Positions 728-60,557 of a stretch of DNA of 64,000 nt are shown piece by piece. The notes under the pieces are model-generated. The model worked only from the letters and a program-made list of their open reading frames with translations. It was not told the DNA's origin and did no database searches. The stretch comes from Pseudomonas lini (GTDB lineage: Bacteria; Pseudomonadota; Gammaproteobacteria; Pseudomonadales; Pseudomonadaceae), in contig NZ_OZ061318.1 of the NCBI RefSeq assembly GCF_964063345.1, positions 806,001 through 870,000 on the forward strand, read 5' to 3'. Made by a program: the position numbers and the translations under genes. How positions within the stretch are numbered: the first letter of the stretch is position 1; every line of letters starts with the position of its first letter.

Positions 728-1218
728 TATGGCTTCGGTAGTCAAAGGGCTGGGGAGTGCCGGCAGCTAACCACACGGCATTGCGGACTGCAAATCGCCT
801 GGACGGCTCTATGCCGGGGCGTGGAAGGGCTGAGGACGTTCGGCGTCTGTGAGTCAGTCTTCGCGGGCAAGCCTCGCTCCTACGGGTTGGGTATCGATCA
901 CATGCCTCGTATGCGACACCAATACCTGTGGGAGCAGGCTTGCCCGCGATGAGGCCGGTACAGTCACCACAAGGCTCGGTGTCAGACTGCTAAACAGGCA
1001 CTGTTTAAATGACACTTCCAGACACTCACCCGGGCTACACATCCTTGCGCCGTTGCCTACGACTACGCCAGAATCCGCCGGCTTGTGCGCCTTGAGGCCG
1101 GGCTCTATCGTTTCCGGGTCGCTGAAAAACAGCGATCGGGTTTCGCAGCCCGGCTCAATCAAGGCGTACAGCGCCACCGTTCCTTTTCAGATGACGTTTT
1201 CGTTCGCTGAATTGCATT
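728..1218. repeat. Gap with an inverted REP pair (about 860-956)
   Basis: About 490 bases without a convincing gene. Two REP palindromes in opposite orientation lie at about 860-890 (core cgcgggcaagc) and 927-956 (core gcttgcccgcg), with about 35 bases between them. This is the usual BIME layout in fluorescent pseudomonads. The open frames across the region are composed of REP sequence and are not credible proteins. I see nothing else identifiable between 960 and 1218. Confidence 0.7.
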
Positions 1219-1345
1219 ATGGCGGCTGTGCGCGGGAGATCTTCGGGTCTGCCGGGTTCCTTGATTCCCGGTCTGCGAACCTGCGTACAGCTGCCACCTA
1301 TCTTCGTTTCGCAGCGAACCGTGGCGGCTCCACTAATCAAGGAGC
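1219..1345 (+). ncRNA. Structured leader upstream of the DUF6124 gene, possibly bistable
   Basis: Bases 1220-1234 pair with 1282-1296 in a 15-bp helix that includes three G-U pairs. The helix encloses two hairpins: a 5-bp stem with a UUCG loop (1237-1250) and a CCGGG/CCCGG stem (1252-1271). Together these form a three-way junction. The octamer tggcggct occurs at 1220-1227 and again at 1322-1329, so the 3' strand (1289-1297) can pair instead with 1321-1329, about 10 bases upstream of the ribosome site. From memory, similar sequence precedes other DUF6124 genes in Pseudomonas; I have not checked this. The role (attenuator, thermosensor or riboswitch) is unknown. Confidence 0.55.
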
Positions 1346-36448: not shown

Positions 36449-36655
36449 ATGACCACCGTAAGTATCGACGCCGACATCAAAGCCAAGTGGCCACAGGGGC
36501 ACAGCTCTTACAGCCCGGGTAGCCCGGAAGAGCTAGCGATCATTGGTATCGATTTGCTGGTCAAGGAACTGGGGACGCAAGCCGCACAGACCTTCATCAC
36601 TCAGATATTCGAGAGATACCCCGTTGACTACATGGGCGCAACAGTCACCGAGTAA
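36449..36655 (+). CDS. Small hypothetical protein ending at the intron junction
   Basis: 68 residues (MTTVSIDADIKAKWPQGHSS ... ITQIFERYPVDYMGATVTE) from ATG 36449; the ribosome site is weak. Its TAA coincides with the 3' boundary of the group II intron. In the empty site the stop would also be TAA, so the insertion does not alter the protein. Function unknown. Confidence 0.6.
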   Translation: MTTVSIDADIKAKWPQGHSSYSPGSPEELAIIGIDLLVKELGTQAAQTFITQIFERYPVDYMGATVTE

Positions 36656-36665
36656 TCGAGTAGGA

Positions 36666-36725
36666 GGCGGATTTACATCCGCCGTCCTCTCACACCACCG
36701 TACGTACGGATCCGTATACGGCGGT
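36666..36725 (-). ncRNA. Group II intron domains V and VI
   Basis: Domain V on the reverse strand is ACCGCCGTA paired with TACGGTGGT (36694-36725), with a two-base CG bulge and a short upper stem around GATC. The triad position reads CGC, as in class IIC. Domain VI is the hairpin GGCGGAT/ATCCGCC (36666-36683). Domain V touches the stop codon of the maturase gene. Confidence 0.8.
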
Positions 36726-38246
36726 TCAAGCTATGCGGCTAAGCCGGTTTATCGTATCCAGTACCGAGACCAACCCAAGTTGATCCCATAGCTTCTTCGG
36801 CAGCGCCTGATTCATATGAGATGCTCCCGAGCTCCACCATGGGCCTCGGCCATTGAAGGCTGATTTGCAGGCGCGAGCTTCGCTAAGCCCCAGGCGCATC
36901 AAGTTACGTGCCCTCGTTGAGGGCCGCTTCCATTGACGCCAGACGACGCAGCGAAGTTTGCGCCGCACCCAGCCGTCAATTTCCTCAAGTGGCCGTTTGC
37001 TCTGACTGAGCTTGAAGTAGCCTGCCCACCCGCGCAGTACAGGGTTTATCCGTTCGATGACATTCGCCATCTTGTGGCCCCGCGCCCCGCGCAGCAGGTC
37101 TCTTAACCGGTCGCGCAAGCGACCCAGACTCATCGTCGCCACTCTCAGCCTCGGTTGCTGATGCCAGCTCATCCCATAACCCAGATAGTCGCAGACCCAA
37201 GGCCGTGCTACGTGGCTCTTTTCCCGGTTCAGCGTCAGTTTCAGGCGCTGATTCAGGAAACGCTCAACACCGGCCATCACCCGTGTGCCAGCTCGCTGGC
37301 TGCGCACATAGATGTTCGCGTCGTCGGCATAACGCACGAAGCGATGGCCTCGCCGTTCAAGTTCGCGGTCGAGTTCGTTGAGCAGGATGTTCGACAGCAA
37401 CGGCGAGAGCGGGCCGCCTTGCGGCGTCCCTTCCTGCCGTCGGCTGACGAGTCCGCCCGACATCGTTCCCGCTTCGAGGTAACGACGGATCAGCGTGAGC
37501 ACACGCTTGTCTTCGATTTGACGCGCCACGTAGGCCATCAGGACATCGTGGTTGACCCGATCAAAGAACTTCTCGAGATCAAGTTCCACGCACCAGCGGT
37601 GACCCGCTGCCACGTGGCCGCGAGCGGTTTCGATGGCTTGGTGAGCGCTTCTACCCCGACGAAAGCCGTAGCTGTAGTCCGAGAACAGAGGATCGAAGAT
37701 TGGCGTGAGCTGTTGCAGCAGTGCCTGTTGGATCAAGCGATCCACGACGCTGGGAATACCCAGTTGCCGTGTTCCACCTTTGGGTTTGGGGATGTCAACG
37801 GCGCGTACACCCTGCGGGTGATACTCGCCGGCCAGCAACCTCACCTTGAGGGTCGGCCAATACTGTTTCACGTAGTCCGCCAAGTCGTCGACCGTCATGC
37901 CATCGGCACCCGGTGCGCCCTTGTTGCTGACCACACGTTGATACGCACGCCTAAGGTTGACCGGTGCAAGCACCCGCTCCATCAGCGTGTCCGGCTCCGC
38001 GTTCGTCCACGTCACAGACGCCGCCGATACCTGTGCGCTGTCAGCCGTCATCCTCGGATACTGTCCGGGACTCGGAGTAACAGTCTTCTCTTGGAGAACT
38101 TTCTGCATTTCGGTATTCAACGAGACTTTGACGCCTACTGGCGGCATAACTTGTTCAGCCCTTGGTGACGGGGTTATTCGCCACTTACTACGGCCTCGGC
38201 TGACTTCTGCACGTTCATCCCGTCGCCTCTCGACGCTCGGTAGCAC
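36726..38246 (-). CDS. ltrA: Group II intron reverse transcriptase/maturase
   Basis: Up to 506 residues; the start is uncertain (GTG 38246 or a later ATG such as 38108). Reverse transcriptase blocks are intact: GAPGADGMTVDDL, LGIPSVVDRLIQQALLQ, CVELDLEKFFDRVNHD, GTPQGGPLSPLLSNILL and the catalytic FVRYADDANIYV. The maturase domain follows (GWAGYFKLSQSKRPLEEIDG; GPWWSSGASHMNQALPK). No HNH endonuclease domain is present, as usual for class C. All key residues remain, so the intron may be active. Confidence 0.92.
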   Translation of the reverse strand: MLPSVERRRDERAEVSRGRSKWRITPSPRAEQVMPPVGVKVSLNTEMQKVLQEKTVTPSPGQYPRMTADSAQVSAASVTWTNAEPDTLMERVLAPVNLRRAYQRVVSNKGAPGADGMTVDDLADYVKQYWPTLKVRLLAGEYHPQGVRAVDIPKPKGGTRQLGIPSVVDRLIQQALLQQLTPIFDPLFSDYSYGFRRGRSAHQAIETARGHVAAGHRWCVELDLEKFFDRVNHDVLMAYVARQIEDKRVLTLIRRYLEAGTMSGGLVSRRQEGTPQGGPLSPLLSNILLNELDRELERRGHRFVRYADDANIYVRSQRAGTRVMAGVERFLNQRLKLTLNREKSHVARPWVCDYLGYGMSWHQQPRLRVATMSLGRLRDRLRDLLRGARGHKMANVIERINPVLRGWAGYFKLSQSKRPLEEIDGWVRRKLRCVVWRQWKRPSTRARNLMRLGLSEARACKSAFNGRGPWWSSGASHMNQALPKKLWDQLGLVSVLDTINRLSRIA

Positions 38247-38578
38247 TGTGGCAAACGTGCAGATCTCCCAGGGTAATTCGCGCGACCTTCCTGCTTATGC
38301 CTGTCGGATCTACGTCGCAGCGTCCCGTGCAAGTATTGGGCTTTAGGGAAACACGCCCCTTTACCCCGCTGCGCCGCCTCTATCCGCTTGCTGTTCGTCA
38401 GGCCAGCATTTTGCCTCGGGCTTCCTTCAGATTCGCGGTCACCCGCGACACCCTTGCCTCTGGCTAACACTTCCCCTTGCCGGGTGTGTAGAGGACTTTC
38501 ACCTCCAAGTCACCAGCGAGGCCACCACAGCCAAGCTGGTTGCGCTTGCGCGCAACGCGCCATGCCTGGCGCACATGT

Positions 38579-54199: not shown

Positions 54200-54276
54200 T
54201 GGTAGGCGCGATTGGACTCGAACCAACGACCCCCACCATGTCAAGGTGGTGCTCTAACCAACTGAGCTACGTGCCT
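54200..54276 (-). tRNA. tRNA-Val (GAC)
   Basis: A 77-base cloverleaf with encoded CCA. The anticodon stem CCACC/GGTGG encloses TTGACAT, anticodon GAC. The T-loop is TTCGAGT. The acceptor arms AGGCACG and CGCGCCT leave an A-C mismatch at pair 5-68. An AT-rich accessory stretch lies on its 3' side. Confidence 0.93.
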
Positions 54277-54459
54277 GCTGTGAGGCGGCATTCTACGGAA
54301 TTCCGGAGGGGTGTCAACACCTTTTTTTCACCTAACCCTATGAATATGCAAAATATTTAATTTTGCTGTGGCAAAGAAGATTTTCCGCTGGCTGGCGGTC
54401 GTTTTTTAACTCGGGTAGGATCGATGCACTCGTAAAATATATTAAACAGAGGCTGCAGG

Positions 54460-55743
54460 ATGGCGAACACTCCCTACCCAGAGTCCTATTACGCCGCATC
54501 GGCCAATGCAGCGCCGCAGTGCCCGGCCTTGCAGGATGATGTTGAGACTGATGTCTGTGTCATCGGCGCCGGTTATACCGGCCTGTCCTCTGCCCTGTTT
54601 CTGCTGGAGAACGGTTTTCGGGTAACGATTCTGGAAGCGGCCAAAGTGGGTTTTGGCGCATCGGGGCGCAACGGTGGCCAGATCGTTAACAGCTACAGCC
54701 GTGATATCGATGTAATCGAGCGCAGTGTCGGTCCCAAGCAAGCTCAGCTGCTGGGGCAAATGGCGTTCGAGGGTGGACGGATCATTCGTGAGCGGGTAGC
54801 CAAATACAACATCCAGTGCGACCTGAAGGACGGCGGTGTGTTCGCCGCCATTACCGCCAAGCAGATGGGCCATCTGGAATCCCAGAAGCGCCTGTGGGAA
54901 CGTTTCGGTCATACGCAGCTTGAGCTATTGGATCAGCGGCGCATCCGTGAAGTGGTGGCTTGCGATCAATACGTCGGCGGCATGCTCGACATGAGCGGCG
55001 GGCATATTCATCCGCTCAATCTTGTCTTGGGCGAGGCAGCCGCCGTGGAGTCGCTGGGCGGCACTATTTACGAGCAGTCGCCAGCGGTGCGCATCGAGCG
55101 CGGCGCCAATCCGGTGGTGCATACGCCTCAAGGCAAGGTCAGGGCCAAATTCATAATCGTCGCCGGCAACGCTTATATCGGCAATCTGGTGCCGGAGCTG
55201 GCGGCCAAGTCGATGCCCTGCGGGACTCAAGTGATCGCCACCGAACCCTTGAGCGATGAATTGGCCAAGCGCCTGTTGCCTCAGGACTACTGCGTCGAAG
55301 ACTGTAACTACCTGCTCGACTACTACCGCCTGAGCGCTGACAAACGCCTGATTTTCGGCGGCGGCGTGGTCTATGGCGCGCGAGACCCGGCGAACATCGA
55401 GGCGATCATTCGACCGAAGATGCTCAAGGCCTTCCCGCAACTCAAGGACGTGAAAATCGATTACGCCTGGACCGGCAATTTCCTGCTGACCCTGTCGCGA
55501 CTTCCTCAGGTCGGACGGCTGGGCGACAACATCTACTACTCCCAGGGTTGCAGCGGCCATGGCGTGACGTATACGCACCTGGCGGGCAAAGTGCTGGCCG
55601 AAGCATTGCGCGGTCAGGCCGAGCGCTTCGACGCCTTTGCCGACCTGCCCCACTACCCGTTCCCCGGCGGACAATTGCTGCGTACGCCATTCGCGGCGCT
55701 GGGTGCCTGGTATTACGGATTGCGGGACAAGCTCGGATACTGA
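54460..55743 (+). CDS. FAD-dependent amine oxidoreductase, PuuB/PauB-like
   Basis: A 427-residue DAO-fold protein. The dinucleotide motif VIGAGYTGLSSALFLLE (GxGxxG at 36-41) and KVGFGASGRNGGQI are intact. The C-terminal YSQGCSGHGVTYTHLAGKVL closes the flavin site. Relatives oxidise gamma-glutamylputrescine or similar polyamine conjugates. No other polyamine genes are adjacent, so the substrate stays open. Confidence 0.85.
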   Translation: MANTPYPESYYAASANAAPQCPALQDDVETDVCVIGAGYTGLSSALFLLENGFRVTILEAAKVGFGASGRNGGQIVNSYSRDIDVIERSVGPKQAQLLGQMAFEGGRIIRERVAKYNIQCDLKDGGVFAAITAKQMGHLESQKRLWERFGHTQLELLDQRRIREVVACDQYVGGMLDMSGGHIHPLNLVLGEAAAVESLGGTIYEQSPAVRIERGANPVVHTPQGKVRAKFIIVAGNAYIGNLVPELAAKSMPCGTQVIATEPLSDELAKRLLPQDYCVEDCNYLLDYYRLSADKRLIFGGGVVYGARDPANIEAIIRPKMLKAFPQLKDVKIDYAWTGNFLLTLSRLPQVGRLGDNIYYSQGCSGHGVTYTHLAGKVLAEALRGQAERFDAFADLPHYPFPGGQLLRTPFAALGAWYYGLRDKLGY

Positions 55744-55744
55744 C

Positions 55745-55962
55745 CTATAGAGGTGAAAAGGGCTGCGATGCGGCTAATGCCAGTCAGTTAAGAGATAGAA
55801 CAAGCGATGAGTAACCTGTGGCGAGGGAGCTTGCTCCCGCTGGGCCGCGAAGCGGCCCCAAAATGGGACTGCTTCGCAGTCCAGCGGGAGCAAGCTCCCT
55901 CGCCACAGGTTCAGTATCACGCCTAACTGACTGGCATTATGCGATGCAACCCCTTTTTATAG
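55745..55962. repeat. Inverted repeat enclosing a REP pair, MITE-like
   Basis: The left arm (55745-55790) and right arm (55924-55962) are imperfect inverted copies. The innermost 16 bases, taatgccagtcagtta, are identical; farther out there are several differences and a length change. Between them (55815-55909) is a complete REP pair of the GTGGCGAGGGAGC type. The arms directly follow the oxidase stop and end before the receptor stop. Confidence 0.7.
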
Positions 55963-55979
55963 GTTGGGATTGGATCGAC

Positions 55980-58403
55980 TCAGAAGTCGACCGTCGCCGA
56001 AAGGAGGTAGGTGCGCGGGGTCGCGAGCGTCAAGCCAGGCTCGCTGTCATCCGAGGCCCCGGCCGAACTCCAGTAGCGTTTGTCCGCCACGTTCTCGACA
56101 TTGGCACGCAGGGTGATGTTCTTTTCGTCGACCTTGAATGCGTAGCGCGCCCCCACGTCGAAACGCTCCCAGGAGTCGATTTCCTTGTTGTTGGACTGGT
56201 CCAGATACTGCGAGCTGGAATAGAGGCCGCGACTGGTCAGGGTCAGGCCCTGCACGGTCGGCACATCCCACTCGGCGCCCAGGTTGACGTTGTATTTCGG
56301 CGTGGCCGGTGCCCGGTTGCCGTCAAAGGTGCCATTGGTGGTGTTGCTCAACTCACTGTCGATGTACATGACACCGCCGAGCAGGCGGAAACCATCGAGC
56401 GGTTCACCGAACACACTCAGCTCCACGCCCGTATTCTCGCGCTTGCCGTTCGGGCCGAAAACCCGCGTCGTGGCGTTGGTCTCATAGGCCGGCTGCTTGA
56501 TCCGGAACACCGCGGCGGTCACGGCGAACGCACCCGCGTCATACTTGGCGCCGACCTCGACCTGCCGACTGATGAATGGCGGAAATATCTCGTCCTCGTT
56601 CACAGAGGTCGACGGCGCGATCTTGCCTTGGCTCAGGCCCTCCATGTAGTTGGCATACAGCGACAGCTTATCGGTTGCCTTAAACAGGATGCCGCCCGAC
56701 GGCGAAACCTTTTCCTCATCGTAGGCCGTGGCGCCTTTGACATCATCCGTCCAGTCGTCAACCTTCACGCGCTGCCAGCGGGCGCCTAGGGTCAGCAGCA
56801 GCCGGTCATCGAAGAAACCCAGAGTGTCGGACAACGCCACGCCGCTGAAGCGGTTCTCGGTGTAGACCTTCGAATCGAGTCGAGTGGGCCTGCCGGGTGC
56901 TGGCGTTTCCACGGGGTCGTAGAGGTTGCTGCGGGCCGCGGCATAACGGGCGCCGCCATTTTCGAAGTCCATGTAGAAATAGCTGGCGGCCAGGTTGACT
57001 TCATGGCTCACCGGGCCGGTATGAAACCAGTTGCGCACCCCTGCCGTGGCCGTCCGGACATTTTCGTCTCGGGTGAAGTCACGCGGCTGAACGCTGAAAT
57101 CGCCGGCATCATTGGTGACCGCAACGGCATGCCGGAGGAAGTCATGATTGCTTTTACGCGCGCCCACGCCGCCGTACAGCATGACCGAATCGCTGACATC
57201 GAATTCGCCGTTCACCGCCCCGAAAGTGTCGTTGGTACTCGCCTTGCTCCAGGGCTGCGCATAGTTGTGACGCACATCGTTCGCATTCGGCACCTTGGCA
57301 TTGGCGCCGACCTGCACGCGCTCCTGCGGAGCGTCGGTATCACGCTCGGTGCGCCCGATGTCCGTCGAGAGCCGCAGGCGCTCACCGCGAAAATCCAGAC
57401 CCAGCACGGCCATCTCGCGGTCGACACTCTGGTGATCCCATTCGGTGTCGCCGGACTGCTTCACGCCGTTGAAACGAATGCCGAACTTGTTGTCTTCACC
57501 AAAGCGCCGGCCGACATCCACCGCACCGCCAACCTGATTGTCGGAAGCGTAGCTACCGGTAAACGAAGTGATGGGCTTGTCGGTCGCGCGCTTGGGCACC
57601 ACGTTGATCCCGCCACCCACACTGCCCCGCGGCGAGATGCCGTTGATGAGCTGGCTCGGGCCTTTGATGATGTCGACGCGGTCGGCCATCTCCATGTCGA
57701 TCGTATAGGTCGGCAGGACCCCGTAGAGACCGTTGTAGGCGACATCACTGTTGAACAGGCTGAGCCCGCGAATGGTGAACTGCTCATAACGCCCACCCGC
57801 CGGGTTGGTGGCGCGAACCGAGGGATCACTGGCGATCAGGTCGCCCAAGGTACGAGCCTGCAGGTTTTTGACCGCCTCGCCAGTGTAGGTGGTCATGCTG
57901 AACGGCGTTTCCATGAAGTCTTTTGAGCCTAGCAAGCCTTGCGAACCGCGGCGCGCGACCTGGCCGCCGGCATACACCTCGCCGCCCGCTCCGCCCGTGG
58001 CACCGAGAATCGAAGTGGGGGCCAGTTGCAGGCTGCTGCCTTCTGGCGCCGGGGTCAGGATGTAGGCCTGTTCGCCCACCGGCTGCAGTTGCAGACCGGA
58101 ATCCTGCAACAGCTGGGCAAAGCCCTCCTCGACCGCGTATTCGCCGGAAAGACCGGGGCTGGTGCGACCGCCTACCAGTGCCGGATCGACCGAGAGATTG
58201 ACGCCAGACAGACCGGCAAACCGGGTCAACGCATCGCTCAGGCTGCCGGCAGGCACCTGGTAATTGCGCCGGGCACTGTCTTCGGCCCAACTGGCAGTGA
58301 TGAATAACGGACTGGCACTCAGGCCCAGCATCAGGCTCAGGTGCAACAAGGGACGCAGGCGGGAAGAAGCCGGGCGCGGACAGCAAGGTATTACTGCGGG
58401 CAT
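55980..58403 (-). CDS. TonB-dependent siderophore receptor with STN signalling domain
   Basis: An 807-residue outer-membrane receptor from ATG 58403. Signal sequence, then a secretin/TonB short N-terminal domain (YQVPAGSLSDALTRFAGLSG ... QDSGLQLQPVGEQAYIL). The plug follows (TTYTGEAVKNLQARTLGDLI; IDMEMADRVDIIKGPSQLIN), then a 22-strand barrel ending in ...TPRTYLLSATVDF with a terminal Phe. The STN domain signals to the FecR-like protein encoded upstream. The ferric ligand is not predictable. Confidence 0.93.
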   Translation of the reverse strand: MPAVIPCCPRPASSRLRPLLHLSLMLGLSASPLFITASWAEDSARRNYQVPAGSLSDALTRFAGLSGVNLSVDPALVGGRTSPGLSGEYAVEEGFAQLLQDSGLQLQPVGEQAYILTPAPEGSSLQLAPTSILGATGGAGGEVYAGGQVARRGSQGLLGSKDFMETPFSMTTYTGEAVKNLQARTLGDLIASDPSVRATNPAGGRYEQFTIRGLSLFNSDVAYNGLYGVLPTYTIDMEMADRVDIIKGPSQLINGISPRGSVGGGINVVPKRATDKPITSFTGSYASDNQVGGAVDVGRRFGEDNKFGIRFNGVKQSGDTEWDHQSVDREMAVLGLDFRGERLRLSTDIGRTERDTDAPQERVQVGANAKVPNANDVRHNYAQPWSKASTNDTFGAVNGEFDVSDSVMLYGGVGARKSNHDFLRHAVAVTNDAGDFSVQPRDFTRDENVRTATAGVRNWFHTGPVSHEVNLAASYFYMDFENGGARYAAARSNLYDPVETPAPGRPTRLDSKVYTENRFSGVALSDTLGFFDDRLLLTLGARWQRVKVDDWTDDVKGATAYDEEKVSPSGGILFKATDKLSLYANYMEGLSQGKIAPSTSVNEDEIFPPFISRQVEVGAKYDAGAFAVTAAVFRIKQPAYETNATTRVFGPNGKRENTGVELSVFGEPLDGFRLLGGVMYIDSELSNTTNGTFDGNRAPATPKYNVNLGAEWDVPTVQGLTLTSRGLYSSSQYLDQSNNKEIDSWERFDVGARYAFKVDEKNITLRANVENVADKRYWSSAGASDDSEPGLTLATPRTYLLSATVDF

Positions 58404-58470
58404 TGATAGAGTTCTCTTGATTCGTTCACATGCCTTGAATGACAAGCGAGTCGAAAAAAGGGGACAGGCT

Positions 58471-59415
58471 TCAGACACTATTTTTGCGCGGCAGCAACGT
58501 CACCCAATAACGGGTACGTGAATGCACCTCCAGCGGCAGGCTGGCCGCGAGCAGCGCGAGGACGCGATCGGTATCGTCCAGGCGGAAACTGCCAGTGACA
58601 CGCAACGCTTCAAGCTCCGGCTCCCAACGCAGCACACCCGGTCGATAAGTGCCGAGTTCGCGCAGGAAATCTCCCAGCGGCTGGTTTTTCGCCATCAGCA
58701 CGCCCTCTCGCCAACCCGGCGCAAGCACATCGAATGGGCTGATCGGCCCGACACCGGTTGCTTGAAGACTGACTTGTTGACCACTGCGCAAAGCCAACAC
58801 CGGCCCCTGCAAGGGCTGCAGTTGCACGGCGCCGTTGTACACCGACACGCGGCAACCGCTCGCTTGCTGACGCACACAGATTTCGCTTTGGCTGACGATG
58901 ATCTGTCCAAACTCCGTTTGGATCGTCAACGGCGACGCGCCCGGCACCCTCAGCGACAACTCCCCCTCAATCAGCTTCAAGCGCCGACTCTGCAAATCCA
59001 CATCGACGGCACTGGTCGTGTTGAGCTGCAAGGAACTGCCATCAGCGAGCTGCAGCTGTTTGCGCTCCCCGGTGGCCGTATGCAGATCGGCTCGCCAGAC
59101 ATCCAGGGGCAATTGTCGGCTAATCAGCCATGCCGCTGGCACCAACGCCACCGCACCCAATGCACGCTTGAGTACCACACGCCGACCCGGCTCGGGACGA
59201 TCCAGACTTTTGAGCGCCAAAGCTGAAGGCAGCTCAGCAAACCGCTGACGCAAGGCTTGAGCCTTCTGCCAGGCCTGCTCGTGACTGACGCAACTGTCGC
59301 GCCAGCGCTGCAGATTCGCATGATCCCGCTCACTGGCACTTCCAGATTCCAGCAAGGCGAGCCACTGCGCGGCAGCTCGCACCGCCTGACGGGCATCGGG
59401 CACTGGGCTGTTCAC
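58471..59415 (-). CDS. FecR-like anti-sigma/signal transducer
   Basis: A 314-residue protein if started at GTG 59415, which overlaps the sigma stop as GTGA; a TTG at 59433 is an alternative. The cytoplasmic N-terminal domain (AAAQWLALLESGSASERDHA, WQKAQALRQRFAELP) binds sigma. A membrane helix (ALGAVALVPAAWLI) and periplasmic FecR domain (ATGERKQLQLADGSSLQLNT) follow. It passes the occupied-receptor signal to the sigma factor. Confidence 0.93.
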   Translation of the reverse strand: MNSPVPDARQAVRAAAQWLALLESGSASERDHANLQRWRDSCVSHEQAWQKAQALRQRFAELPSALALKSLDRPEPGRRVVLKRALGAVALVPAAWLISRQLPLDVWRADLHTATGERKQLQLADGSSLQLNTTSAVDVDLQSRRLKLIEGELSLRVPGASPLTIQTEFGQIIVSQSEICVRQQASGCRVSVYNGAVQLQPLQGPVLALRSGQQVSLQATGVGPISPFDVLAPGWREGVLMAKNQPLGDFLRELGTYRPGVLRWEPELEALRVTGSFRLDDTDRVLALLAASLPLEVHSRTRYWVTLLPRKNSV

Positions 59416-59921
59416 AGCTCCACCGACAGGCAATGCTCATAGGCTTGCGCCATGTAGCGTTTGATCGTGCGCTCCGATACCCGCAGGCGCTCGGCAATTT
59501 GCTGATAGTTCAAGCCTTCCAGCTGACTCCAGAGAAACGCCCTGCGCACTGCCGCCGGCAATCCATCGAGCAGTTCATCCAGGGCTTGCAGCGTTTCGAG
59601 CAACAACCAGCGCTGCTCGGGCGACGGCACACAGTCTTCCGGCAACGCCGCCAGTGCCGCCAGATAAGCCTGCTCGAGGCTTCGACGCTTATAGAAATTA
59701 CTCAGCAGGCGTTTGCCCACGGTCAGGAGATAGGCACGGGGCTCTTGCAGATCGGCAATTCGTTGAGAGCTGGCGAGTAAACGCAGGAACGTATCCTGAC
59801 TGAGGTCCGCCGCATCACAGCCATTGCCCATGCGTCTTCTCAACCAGCCTTCCAGCCAGCCACGGTGATCGCGGTACAGGTCGTGGAAAGTTTGCTCCTT
59901 CGGCATCGCCACATCACTCAT
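59412..59921 (-). CDS. ECF sigma factor, FecI/PvdS-like iron-starvation type
   Basis: A 169-residue sigma-70-like factor. Region 2 (FHDLYRDHRGWLEGWLRRRM, AADLSQDTFLRLLA) and region 4 (LPAAVRRAFLWSQLEGLNYQ, QIAERLRVSERTIKRYMAQA) are intact. First of the sigma/anti-sigma/receptor set; a Fur-like box lies upstream. Confidence 0.93.
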   Translation of the reverse strand: MSDVAMPKEQTFHDLYRDHRGWLEGWLRRRMGNGCDAADLSQDTFLRLLASSQRIADLQEPRAYLLTVGKRLLSNFYKRRSLEQAYLAALAALPEDCVPSPEQRWLLLETLQALDELLDGLPAAVRRAFLWSQLEGLNYQQIAERLRVSERTIKRYMAQAYEHCLSVEL

Positions 59922-59956
59922 CTCAAGAAGCCCTGTGCCAAGGAGTTATCGTAAAT

Positions 59957-59975
59957 GAGAGTGATTCTAATTAAT
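59957..59975. promoter_or_regulatory. Fur-box-like site before the ECF sigma gene
   Basis: GAGAGTGATTCTAATTAAT matches the 19-base Fur consensus at 12 positions and lies 36 bases before the sigma start. Iron repression of such sigma genes is the family rule. Confidence 0.6.
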
Positions 59976-60067
59976 GTCGGAGCTGTGAACCAAGTCCTTT
60001 ATGCAATCGGGGCGCAGAAAGGTTGGACGGGAAGGACATGAGAGAGGAAAAGCCAAATCGCAGACAC

Positions 60068-60093
60068 AAAAAACCCCGGTCTTTCGACCAGGG
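60068..60093 (-). terminator. Terminator of the tRNA-Val/Asp/Asp transcript
   Basis: The reverse strand reads CCCTGGTC, GAAA loop, GACCGGGG (one G-U), then TTTTTT. It lies about 90 bases after the last tRNA. Confidence 0.85.
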
Positions 60094-60180
60094 TCTTTGC
60101 TATCGACTCGAAACAGACACTGGCTTTACCAGCGGCTTGCTTCGTAGCTCCAAGGCGTTCAGTGGGCCTTGAGGCAGATA

Positions 60181-60257
60181 TGGCGCAGCGGACGGGACTC
60201 GAACCCGCGACCCCCGGCGTGACAGGCCGGTATTCTAACCGACTGAACTACCGCTGC
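60181..60257 (-). tRNA. tRNA-Asp (GTC), copy 2
   Basis: A 77-base cloverleaf with encoded CCA. Acceptor GCAGCGG/CCGCTGC, anticodon loop CTGTCAC (GTC), T-loop TTCGAGT. It is identical to the copy at 60350. Confidence 0.96.
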
Positions 60258-60349
60258 GTATCGCTTTGGACTTTCGCCCAAGTAACTCGTCTGATTGAAA
60301 ACTCAGAAGCTTTTCAATCTCGAATCAGATAAATCTGACTCGGAAAATA

Positions 60350-60426
60350 TGGCGCAGCGGACGGGACTCGAACCCGCGACCCCCGGCGTGACAGGCCGGT
60401 ATTCTAACCGACTGAACTACCGCTGC
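60350..60426 (-). tRNA. tRNA-Asp (GTC), copy 1
   Basis: Identical in sequence to the copy at 60181, 92 bases apart, in the same orientation. The spacers differ, so the duplication covers essentially only the tRNA. Confidence 0.96.
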
Positions 60427-60481
60427 GCGTCGGTGGAGGCTTTTAAAAGCTTCCATCTTGCTTTCGCAAGACTCTCGGAAG

Positions 60482-60557
60482 TGGTGGGTGATGACGGGAT
60501 CGAACCGCCGACATTCTGCTTGTAAGGCAGACGCTCTCCCAGCTGAGCTAATCACCC
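60482..60557 (-). tRNA. tRNA-Val (TAC)
   Basis: A 76-base cloverleaf with encoded CCA. Acceptor GGGTGAT/ATCACCC, anticodon loop CTTACAA (TAC), T-loop TTCGATC. It is first in the reverse-strand tRNA set. Confidence 0.96.

Follow-up and report, generated by a model that had tools for sequence, protein, structure and literature searches.

A C4 antisense RNA unit ahead of a DUF6124 gene in Pseudomonas lini and its counterparts across the genus

Architecture of the DUF6124 leader

The window analysed here is a 64,000-nucleotide stretch of Pseudomonas lini (contig NZ_OZ061318.1), close to the 5' end of which lies a gene for a DUF6124 protein, a member, as a first-pass annotation made from the sequence letters had said, of a family of unknown function. 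A segment of this gene's leader matches the C4 antisense RNA over the whole model (RF01695; gathering score 45, E 3.6e-15, model positions 1–87 of 87) and is preceded by the c4-a1b1 motif (RF03163), which stands just above its gathering score of 46.7 bits (Table 1). In phage P1, going by the accessible portions of two sources, C4 is processed by RNase P and uses two short segments, namely b', which covers the ribosome site, and a', which provides specificity (PMC5320573, PMC12197685).

The Rfam model closes the RNA with a stem, P1, of 17 bp. The first-pass annotation had drawn a 15-bp helix (1220–1234 with 1282–1296) closing a three-way junction that includes a UUCG hairpin; this helix is real, its coordinates are right and it forms the outer 15 bp of stem P1, and the UUCG hairpin (P2) together with another, P3, completes the junction. 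In the minimum-energy fold computed from the window unit alone, the UUCG hairpin is open, contrary to the drawn structure. What was missed in that annotation are the pairings a'–a2 and b'–b2. The seven bases of a', on the 3' side of P3, are the exact complement of both a2 and a1, while b' is complementary over 10 nt, with one G.U pair, to the segment b2 that holds the Shine–Dalgarno sequence of DUF6124. The sequence context at the ends of C4 (AU before GG; GCCACC at the 3' end) is as in phage P1 and, as both the 5' and 3' contexts agree, the mature RNA is predicted to be about 78 nt long (approximately 1221–1298).

The phage P1 record has the order promoter P1c4, a1, b1, C4 RNA of 77 nt, a2, b2, icd and ant, and the −10 element of P1c4 (TATAGT) lies in the matching place, ahead of a matching 5' hairpin. 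Each of the seven pairs of the window's 5' hairpin is kept in 42 to 45 of the 45 own-genome units. A sigma-70 consensus scan of positions 1000–1800 gave no promoter match, and a scan of the same interval for terminators gave none on the same strand, both terminator-like sites being on the other strand.

Table 1. Features of the C4–DUF6124 unit, in window coordinates
Feature	Positions	Strand	Basis
Putative promoter (TTGTGC 1083–1088, 17 nt, TATCGT 1106–1111)	1083–1111	+	placed by position relative to phage P1 P1c4
c4-a1b1 motif, RF03163	1105–1156	+	47.7 bits
5' hairpin, presumed transcript start	1118–1136	+	first hairpin of RF03163
a1, UUCGCAG, within RF03163 model hairpin	1142–1148	+	exact 7-nt complement of 1273–1279 (a')
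b1, AAUCAAGG	1157–1164	+	exact complement of 1259–1266 (in b')
C4 antisense RNA, RF01695	1215–1301	+	84.5 bits
Stem P1, 5' strand (partner 1280–1296); holds helix one of the first-pass annotation	1220–1236	+	Rfam model
P2 hairpin, UUCG loop	1237–1250	+	Rfam model; covariation with stem P1
P3 hairpin bearing b'	1251–1272	+	Rfam model
b', UUCCUUGAUU	1257–1266	+	10-nt complement (one G.U) of b2
a', CUGCGAA	1273–1279	+	complement of a2 and a1
Stem P1, 3' strand	1280–1296	+	Rfam model
c', distal 3' strand of stem P1 plus tail	1289–1298	+	complementarity to c2
a2, UUCGCAG, inside a short predicted hairpin	1308–1314	+	complement of a'
c2, complement of c'; helix two of the first-pass annotation	1321–1329	+	complementarity
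Predicted SD hairpin, GCUCC 1327–1331 with GGAGC 1341–1345, loop holding part of b2	1327–1345	+	minimum-energy fold
b2 and Shine–Dalgarno, AAUCAAGGAG	1335–1344	+	complement of b'
DUF6124 gene, 119 aa	1352–1711	+	PF19619, 68.2 bits (cut-off 27)

At the orthologous site in L077, also Pseudomonas lini, there are tandem C4–DUF6124 units (925–1063 and 1864–2003) that differ in a' (CGGUCAA and CUGCGAA), each with a matching a2, and units with CGGUCAA or CUACCAA lie beside the same flank in other species. One site can thus change its specificity, plausibly by duplication and loss. Seven other genomes with the flanking gene have no unit in the flank examined (1.5 kb in six, about 1.2 kb in the seventh) and are too distant to give insertion boundaries. 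Inverted REP-like repeats lie on either side of the window's unit (858–949 and 1738–1870), the latter stretch also drawing a microRNA-family match far under its cut-off. Further along the window, the minus strand has three group II intron matches (36655–38448) and four tRNA matches (54203–60557), three of which cluster at 60184–60557.

Copy number, targets and antisense–target matching

The genome contains 46 C4 matches, 45 of them over the cut-off, and 39 DUF6124 domains, 33 of which have a C4 on the same strand no more than 700 nt upstream; the remaining six DUF6124 genes have no C4 unit detectable with our own unit model at E ≤ 1. A Pfam scan of 44 proteins encoded downstream returned 32 DUF6124, two Bro-N, a domain of some phage antirepressors, one DUF3077 and nine without a family, eight of which can be aligned with one another and make up an unnamed family with members of about 90–110 amino acids (five closely, three at 26–30% identity), the ninth (L066) being a truncated DUF6124 frame. 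One match, L011, has REP-like sequence downstream with a 60-aa frame alone, was judged to have no target and was left out of all target counts; L076 was left out of the Pfam scan because its first ORF has just 21 aa, and for L073 and L076 the start codon was assigned manually. L011 and L066 are orphan or broken copies, and truncated copies of C4 without the target half occur at L127:1189–1332 and L128:1357–1491, where the RNA runs into apparent DUF6124 coding sequence. In L019, L024, L026 and L027, the complement of b' reaches or adjoins the start codon rather than covering the Shine–Dalgarno sequence.

For DUF6124, structure prediction was of low confidence over the N-terminal half and gave, with confidence, a helical hairpin (mean pLDDT 75.6, pTM 0.49); for the unnamed family it likewise gave a helical hairpin (pLDDT 78.8, pTM 0.67). 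A Foldseek search of both against the PDB returned nothing at E ≤ 0.001. Profile comparison showed no relationship between the two families (probability 0.5%). DUF6124 is not mentioned in the literature searched, where DUF3077 is mentioned once. A short N-terminus, (T)PxPP or TPNPS, is common to DUF6124, the unnamed family and a Bro-N protein (L072, L022, L074 and L075 alongside the DUF6124 units), as if the target region and first codons had been swapped between genes.

The genus sample comprises 38 genomes, that of the window among them. C4 matches occur in 34 of these (over the cut-off in 33), the median per genome being 14 and the maximum 46; 16 of the 38 have at least 20, and the counts of C4 and DUF6124 are correlated (Spearman 0.86). 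Elsewhere in the class, 17 of 273 other sampled genomes have C4, at one to six matches each when the best 15 candidates per genome are scored, and none has DUF6124; in a sample of the phylum, scored over the best 10 candidates per genome, a C4 match occurs in 62 of 398. High copy number is not confined to Pseudomonas, as other genera are also C4-rich (G613, G563, G763, G788 and G853, with at least 8–10 matches), G613, of the same family as the window's genome, having at least 13 among the best 14 candidates scored. Searching from the protein side yielded 239 loci, and in 76 of the best 80 of these the unit ends exactly at the start codon. Phages of Pseudomonas also have the unit: 27 records match part of it, with C4 over the cut-off in all five examined, and in phage EU982300 the ORF directly 3' of C4 belongs to DUF6124 and has prtR, a repressor gene, nearby, an arrangement that suggests a phage origin. 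In 31 of 94 C4 units from other genomes (L165:387–542, L187:598–753 and 29 more, alignment A8), a conserved ORF of about 52–57 aa comes next, where phage P1 has icd; L165, the single member scanned, gave no Pfam match.

Covariation was scored over the 45 own-genome units and over alignment A3, whose 94 rows are the best match per genome among the matches listed, with the best 20 candidates scored per genome; 183 other genomes had a match, and selection of this kind biases the rows towards high-scoring, partly prophage-type units. Stems P1 and P2, counted jointly and so including the UUCG hairpin, have 97.8% of cells paired in the own-genome units, against 87.0% when shuffled, and 100% against 89.8% in the 94 units of other genomes (90 distinct rows), where the alignment was fitted to the structure; the P1/P2 junction has covariation support on this joint count. 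The a'–a2 pairing is absent from the structure model used for alignment. Its cells are paired in 89.5% of cases in the own units (67.8% shuffled) and in 99.7% (79.8% shuffled) in the 90 distinct rows from other genomes, with covariation scores of 0.625 and 0.662 against 0.213 and 0.248, none of 500 shuffles reaching any of these values. A perfect 7-nt a'–a2 complement is present in 91 of the 94 rows of A3 and in 69 of the 78 gap-free rows of a further alignment, A4 (81 rows, three gapped rows left out). Doubly changed pairs and further pair types are in no excess over shuffles (78 and 146 of 500 for the own units; 182 and 386 of 500 for other genomes).

For b'–b2, 83.3% of cells are paired against 69.0% shuffled, with a covariation score of 0.295 against 0.115 (0 of 500 shuffles), the inner five pairs holding in 91.3% and the outer three, which lie across a variable gap, in 63.8%. 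The shuffle controls leave relatedness in; slid controls, which also keep kinship, score lower, reaching at most 50.2% for a'–a2 and 62.2% for b'–b2. In these alignments, covariation other than that of the stems is strongest for a'–a2 and b'–b2, the pairings of antisense with target. Complementarity of a' and b' to a2 and b2 is found across units, and to a1 and b1 in the window unit, the unit examined for it.

The same two contacts distinguish one unit from another. Over the 45 units, a'–a2 complementarity averages 7.11 for own pairs against 4.54 for cross pairs (largest of 10000 permuted means 5.26), and b'–b2 complementarity 8.28 against 5.07 (largest of 10000, 5.82). A joint threshold of a ≥ 6 and b ≥ 7 is passed by 37 of the 45 own pairs and by 11 of 1980 cross pairs, the other eight own units falling below it; three units (L015, L023 and L029) have little b'–b2 pairing, with runs of 4–5 nt. 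By summed score, 39 of the 45 C4s have no better target than their own (35 without ties) and 35 of the 45 targets have no better C4. RNA cofolding of all 45 × 45 combinations, a method that cannot represent loop–loop contacts, placed the own target best for one of the 45 C4s. Judged by complementarity, the roughly 45 units of this genome are nearly insulated from each other, with most matched to their own gene, and are apparently self-silencing.

The c'–c2 complementarity

The first-pass annotation had also pointed to an octamer of the stem P1 5' strand (TGGCGGCT, 1220–1227) that recurs at 1322–1329, such that 1289–1297 could pair over 9 bp with 1321–1329, and had read from this two mutually exclusive helices in the layout of a switch. 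The repeat and the 9-bp pairing, which includes one G.U, were both recovered; when the 54 nt downstream were shuffled by mononucleotide, 2 of 2000 shuffles gave this fixed 9-mer a run of at least nine. Both helices use 1289–1296 and are therefore mutually exclusive, but they are far from balanced: forcing c'–c2 in cis costs 11.2 kcal/mol (−49.2 against −60.4), and the equilibrium probability, taken from one representative pair each, is 0.9997 for stem P1 (1223–1293) against 0.00025 for its rival (1293–1325), so that the alternative fold is not populated at equilibrium in the full leader. Of the switch layout, the structured leader and its strands with alternative partners stand, but they belong to a C4 antisense RNA and its targets rather than to a novel cis switch.

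The energies are closer when c2 is weighed against the stem P1 5' strand as a partner for c'. Pairing of c' with the 5' strand and with c2 comes to −14.0 and −16.6, respectively, in the window unit, to −13.8 and −14.2 as means over the 94 units from other genomes and, averaged across the own-genome set of 45, to −13.8 and −11.5; c'–c2 is at least as stable as pairing with the distal 5' strand in 12 of the 45 own units and 56 of the 94 others. On these calculations, the exchange would be roughly neutral in energy. The c'–c2 and b'–b2 pairings can form together without crossing; c'–c2 crosses a'–a2 topologically, which makes the coexistence of those two unlikely.

Within the genus, the complementarity is conserved and covaries weakly, with 81.0% of cells paired in the own genome against 78.6% shuffled (1 of 500 shuffles) and 89.9% against 87.7% in the other genomes (0 of 500); a longest-run test in the own genome gave 5.98 for own and 5.45 for cross pairs, with a largest permuted mean of 6.04. 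Of 100 cells at G.U pairs of stem P1, 75 have c2 in a Watson–Crick pair with c' and 21 have it copy the 5' base (26 and 15 of 46, respectively, in the own genome); this restoration is concentrated in one column and indicates that c2 is not merely a copy of the 5' strand.

Across genera, covariation is significant. For 26 loci outside the genus, the mean own c'–c2 run is 8.08; cross pairs average 6.96 (0 of 5000 permutations), and the mean falls to 5.20 when the downstream sequence is shuffled. When each genus is represented by a single locus (41 from 61; L283 was left out, as were 19 further loci of the 61, whose genus the first listed locus already covered), own pairs reach 8.90 of 11 against 8.19 for cross pairs (0 of 20000 permutations). 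These permutation tests ignore kinship, taking one locus per genus being the sole guard in the one-per-genus tests, and the genus and family labels are tool-assigned and may divide what is usually called Pseudomonas into smaller groups. Over the six variable positions alone, the difference is marginal (4.51 against 4.24, 222 of 20000 permutations). In leave-one-column-out placement of the 41 loci, five columns are at 0 of 5000, one of them the invariant C of c', which is a register effect. At the edge of stem P1, the tail base has a partner in c2 at 31 of the 41 loci (A–U 22, G–C 4, C–G 3, U–A 2). With the register set by the target motif instead of c', which covers 36 of the 41 loci and leaves out five that lack the anchor motif, there are 306 own pairs against 282.6 permuted (sd 5.0, maximum 302, 5000 permutations), the best columns standing at 5, 6 and 46 of 5000, three more at 122 to 781 and the rest being null or invariant. 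Covariation, which had been proposed in the first pass as the check on both helices, does not refute the first-pass reading: it is very strong for stem P1 and, for c'–c2, significant with one locus per genus, weak within the genus and marginal over the six positions.

The predicted SD hairpin overlaps c2, so part of the conservation of c2 may stem from this hairpin, which is itself conserved with weak covariation (91.5% of cells pair across genomes). In phage P1, the stretch separating a2 from b2 includes GGUAGCAGG, which agrees with the c' of that phage at eight of nine positions; the record annotates no site there. The C4 literature searched, mostly represented without full texts and with subscription papers largely outside it, contains no mention of a pairing of this type, and c'–c2 may be an undescribed third contact between C4 and its target.

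A proposed mechanism, its alternatives and known systems

From comparative evidence, we consider it very probable that approximately 1083–1711 is one self-contained, self-silencing C4 cassette that includes the DUF6124 gene. Family membership, anatomy, the covariation of P1/P2, a'–a2 and b'–b2, and near-insulation come from comparison itself; transcription, processing and repression at the DUF6124 locus we infer by analogy. Transcription would start just 5' of the hairpin and continue through a1/b1, C4, a2/c2/b2 and DUF6124, and C4 would be excised from this same transcript, with a 5' end near G1221 made by RNase P and a 3' end near C1298. The excised RNA would act in trans, b' in the P3 loop pairing with b2 to cover the Shine–Dalgarno sequence and a' pairing with a2 for specificity, leaving DUF6124 silent by default, while the a1/b1 piece is probably a decoy or an attenuator that senses free C4. 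The least certain step is c'–c2, which would most likely form a third contact by exchanging the distal half of stem P1 after the first contacts are made, and which would seal the repressed complex or block its processing; the near-neutral exchange and the crossing of a'–a2 favour a late locking step, or tail-based interference with processing.

We extend this tentatively, and regard the extension as a whole as somewhat doubtful, to the proposal that C4 has an undescribed third pairing, c'–c2, whose conservation extends from phage P1 into many genera of proteobacteria, c2 displacing the stem 5' strand and engaging the tail, and that Pseudomonas has multiplied these cassettes into dozens of insulated, self-silencing units. 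If so, each specificity would be its own immunity or incompatibility group, DUF6124 being made upon meeting a cell without the matching C4 or upon loss of C4, and c'–c2, if functional, would revise the two-contact picture of C4. The collection would constitute a natural set of nearly orthogonal antisense–target pairs and would place families of uncharacterised proteins within a single, testable logic. Many Pseudomonas genomes carry dozens of copies of a regulatory RNA of the phage P1 type and, in the window's genome, most copies are wired to their own gene.

Two alternatives bear on the reading of c2. It could have no pairing role toward C4 and instead either supply the SD hairpin with its 5' arm or duplicate the stem P1 5' strand, which we judge rather unlikely. 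The GCUCC/GGAGC helix of the predicted fold, paired in most cells across genomes, would account for such conservation, and neither the longest-run test, where own pairs do no better than cross pairs, nor the marginal result at the six variable nucleotides requires more; against this, the Watson–Crick restoration described above (75 cells against 21 copies, mostly in one column) argues against a copy, several columns covary with one locus per genus even where the register is set without c', and the tail base at the stem edge pairs through four pair types. A very unlikely reading, given the 11.2 kcal/mol by which stem P1 is ahead at equilibrium, is that of a leader which flips in cis between stem P1 and c'–c2 in response to a ligand, temperature or a factor, without any antisense RNA in trans. 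No hint of a ligand or of temperature dependence emerged from these comparisons. The shared strand and the conserved c'–c2 complementarity are what such a switch would have, but it does not need a'–a2 and b'–b2, the strongest covariation outside the stems, and the whole matches a family that is described as trans-acting in the available parts of PMC5320573 and PMC12197685.

The remaining alternatives concern the cassette as a whole. Activation of the IsrK type could dominate, with a short a1/b1 RNA opening the downstream mRNA in trans and C4 acting mainly as its counterpart. Short IsrK of Salmonella activates translation of a read-through mRNA, going by the accessible text of PMC4825925, and Burkholderia cenocepacia isrK and C4 matches are listed as adjacent candidate small RNAs in the accessible part of PMC4603805; the a1/b1 region of the window matches isrK (RF01394) at 32.8 bits, under the cut-off of 50, which two of the five phage loci pass (51.3 and 50.8 bits). 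This we hold to be unlikely, since a terminator-like hairpin between b1 and C4 is present in four of the 45 own units against 1.5 expected (mononucleotide shuffles; loops of 3–10, longer ones being missed) and the 1000–1800 scan found no terminator on the strand of the window unit. Covariation of a'–a2, b'–b2 and the stems over dozens of paralogues and 94 genomes, along with DUF6124 reading frames that are mostly open, makes it highly improbable that the units are decayed prophage remnants without a present function, even though phages carry the same units and the orphan, broken and truncated copies noted above exist.

The self-silencing cassette that we favour resembles several known systems in part. 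Like IsrK–orf45–anrP of prophage Gifsy-1, as set out in the available text (PMC4825925), it has an upstream hairpin RNA related to a1/b1 and alternative structures before a small ORF, but it differs from Gifsy-1 IsrK in its sub-threshold isrK score and in the scarcity, at four of 45 units, of terminator-like hairpins. Phage P4 CI RNA, lying with seqA and seqC as a processed antisense RNA between two complementary sites, is likened to it by description from the same portion of PMC4825925. Acinetobacter baumannii likewise has a large set of C4-like RNAs in one genome, there apparently processed from larger transcripts, but in the accessible portion of that account the targets are left open, whereas here, in a comparison made by description, the own target lies over the Shine–Dalgarno sequence of the next gene (PMC5320573). 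With the c4–icd–ant operon of the C4 antisense RNA of phages P1 and P7, compared here through phage P1, the unit shares the three-way junction, a' and b', upstream a1 and b1, downstream a2 and b2 over the ribosome site, a similar promoter position and the 5' hairpin. The gene that follows the leader is DUF6124 rather than icd and an antirepressor gene, and two of the 44 own-genome targets are Bro-N proteins; unlike phage P1, where icd–ant is controlled, the control here would fall on DUF6124, and approximately 45 copies, with differing specificities, share one chromosome.
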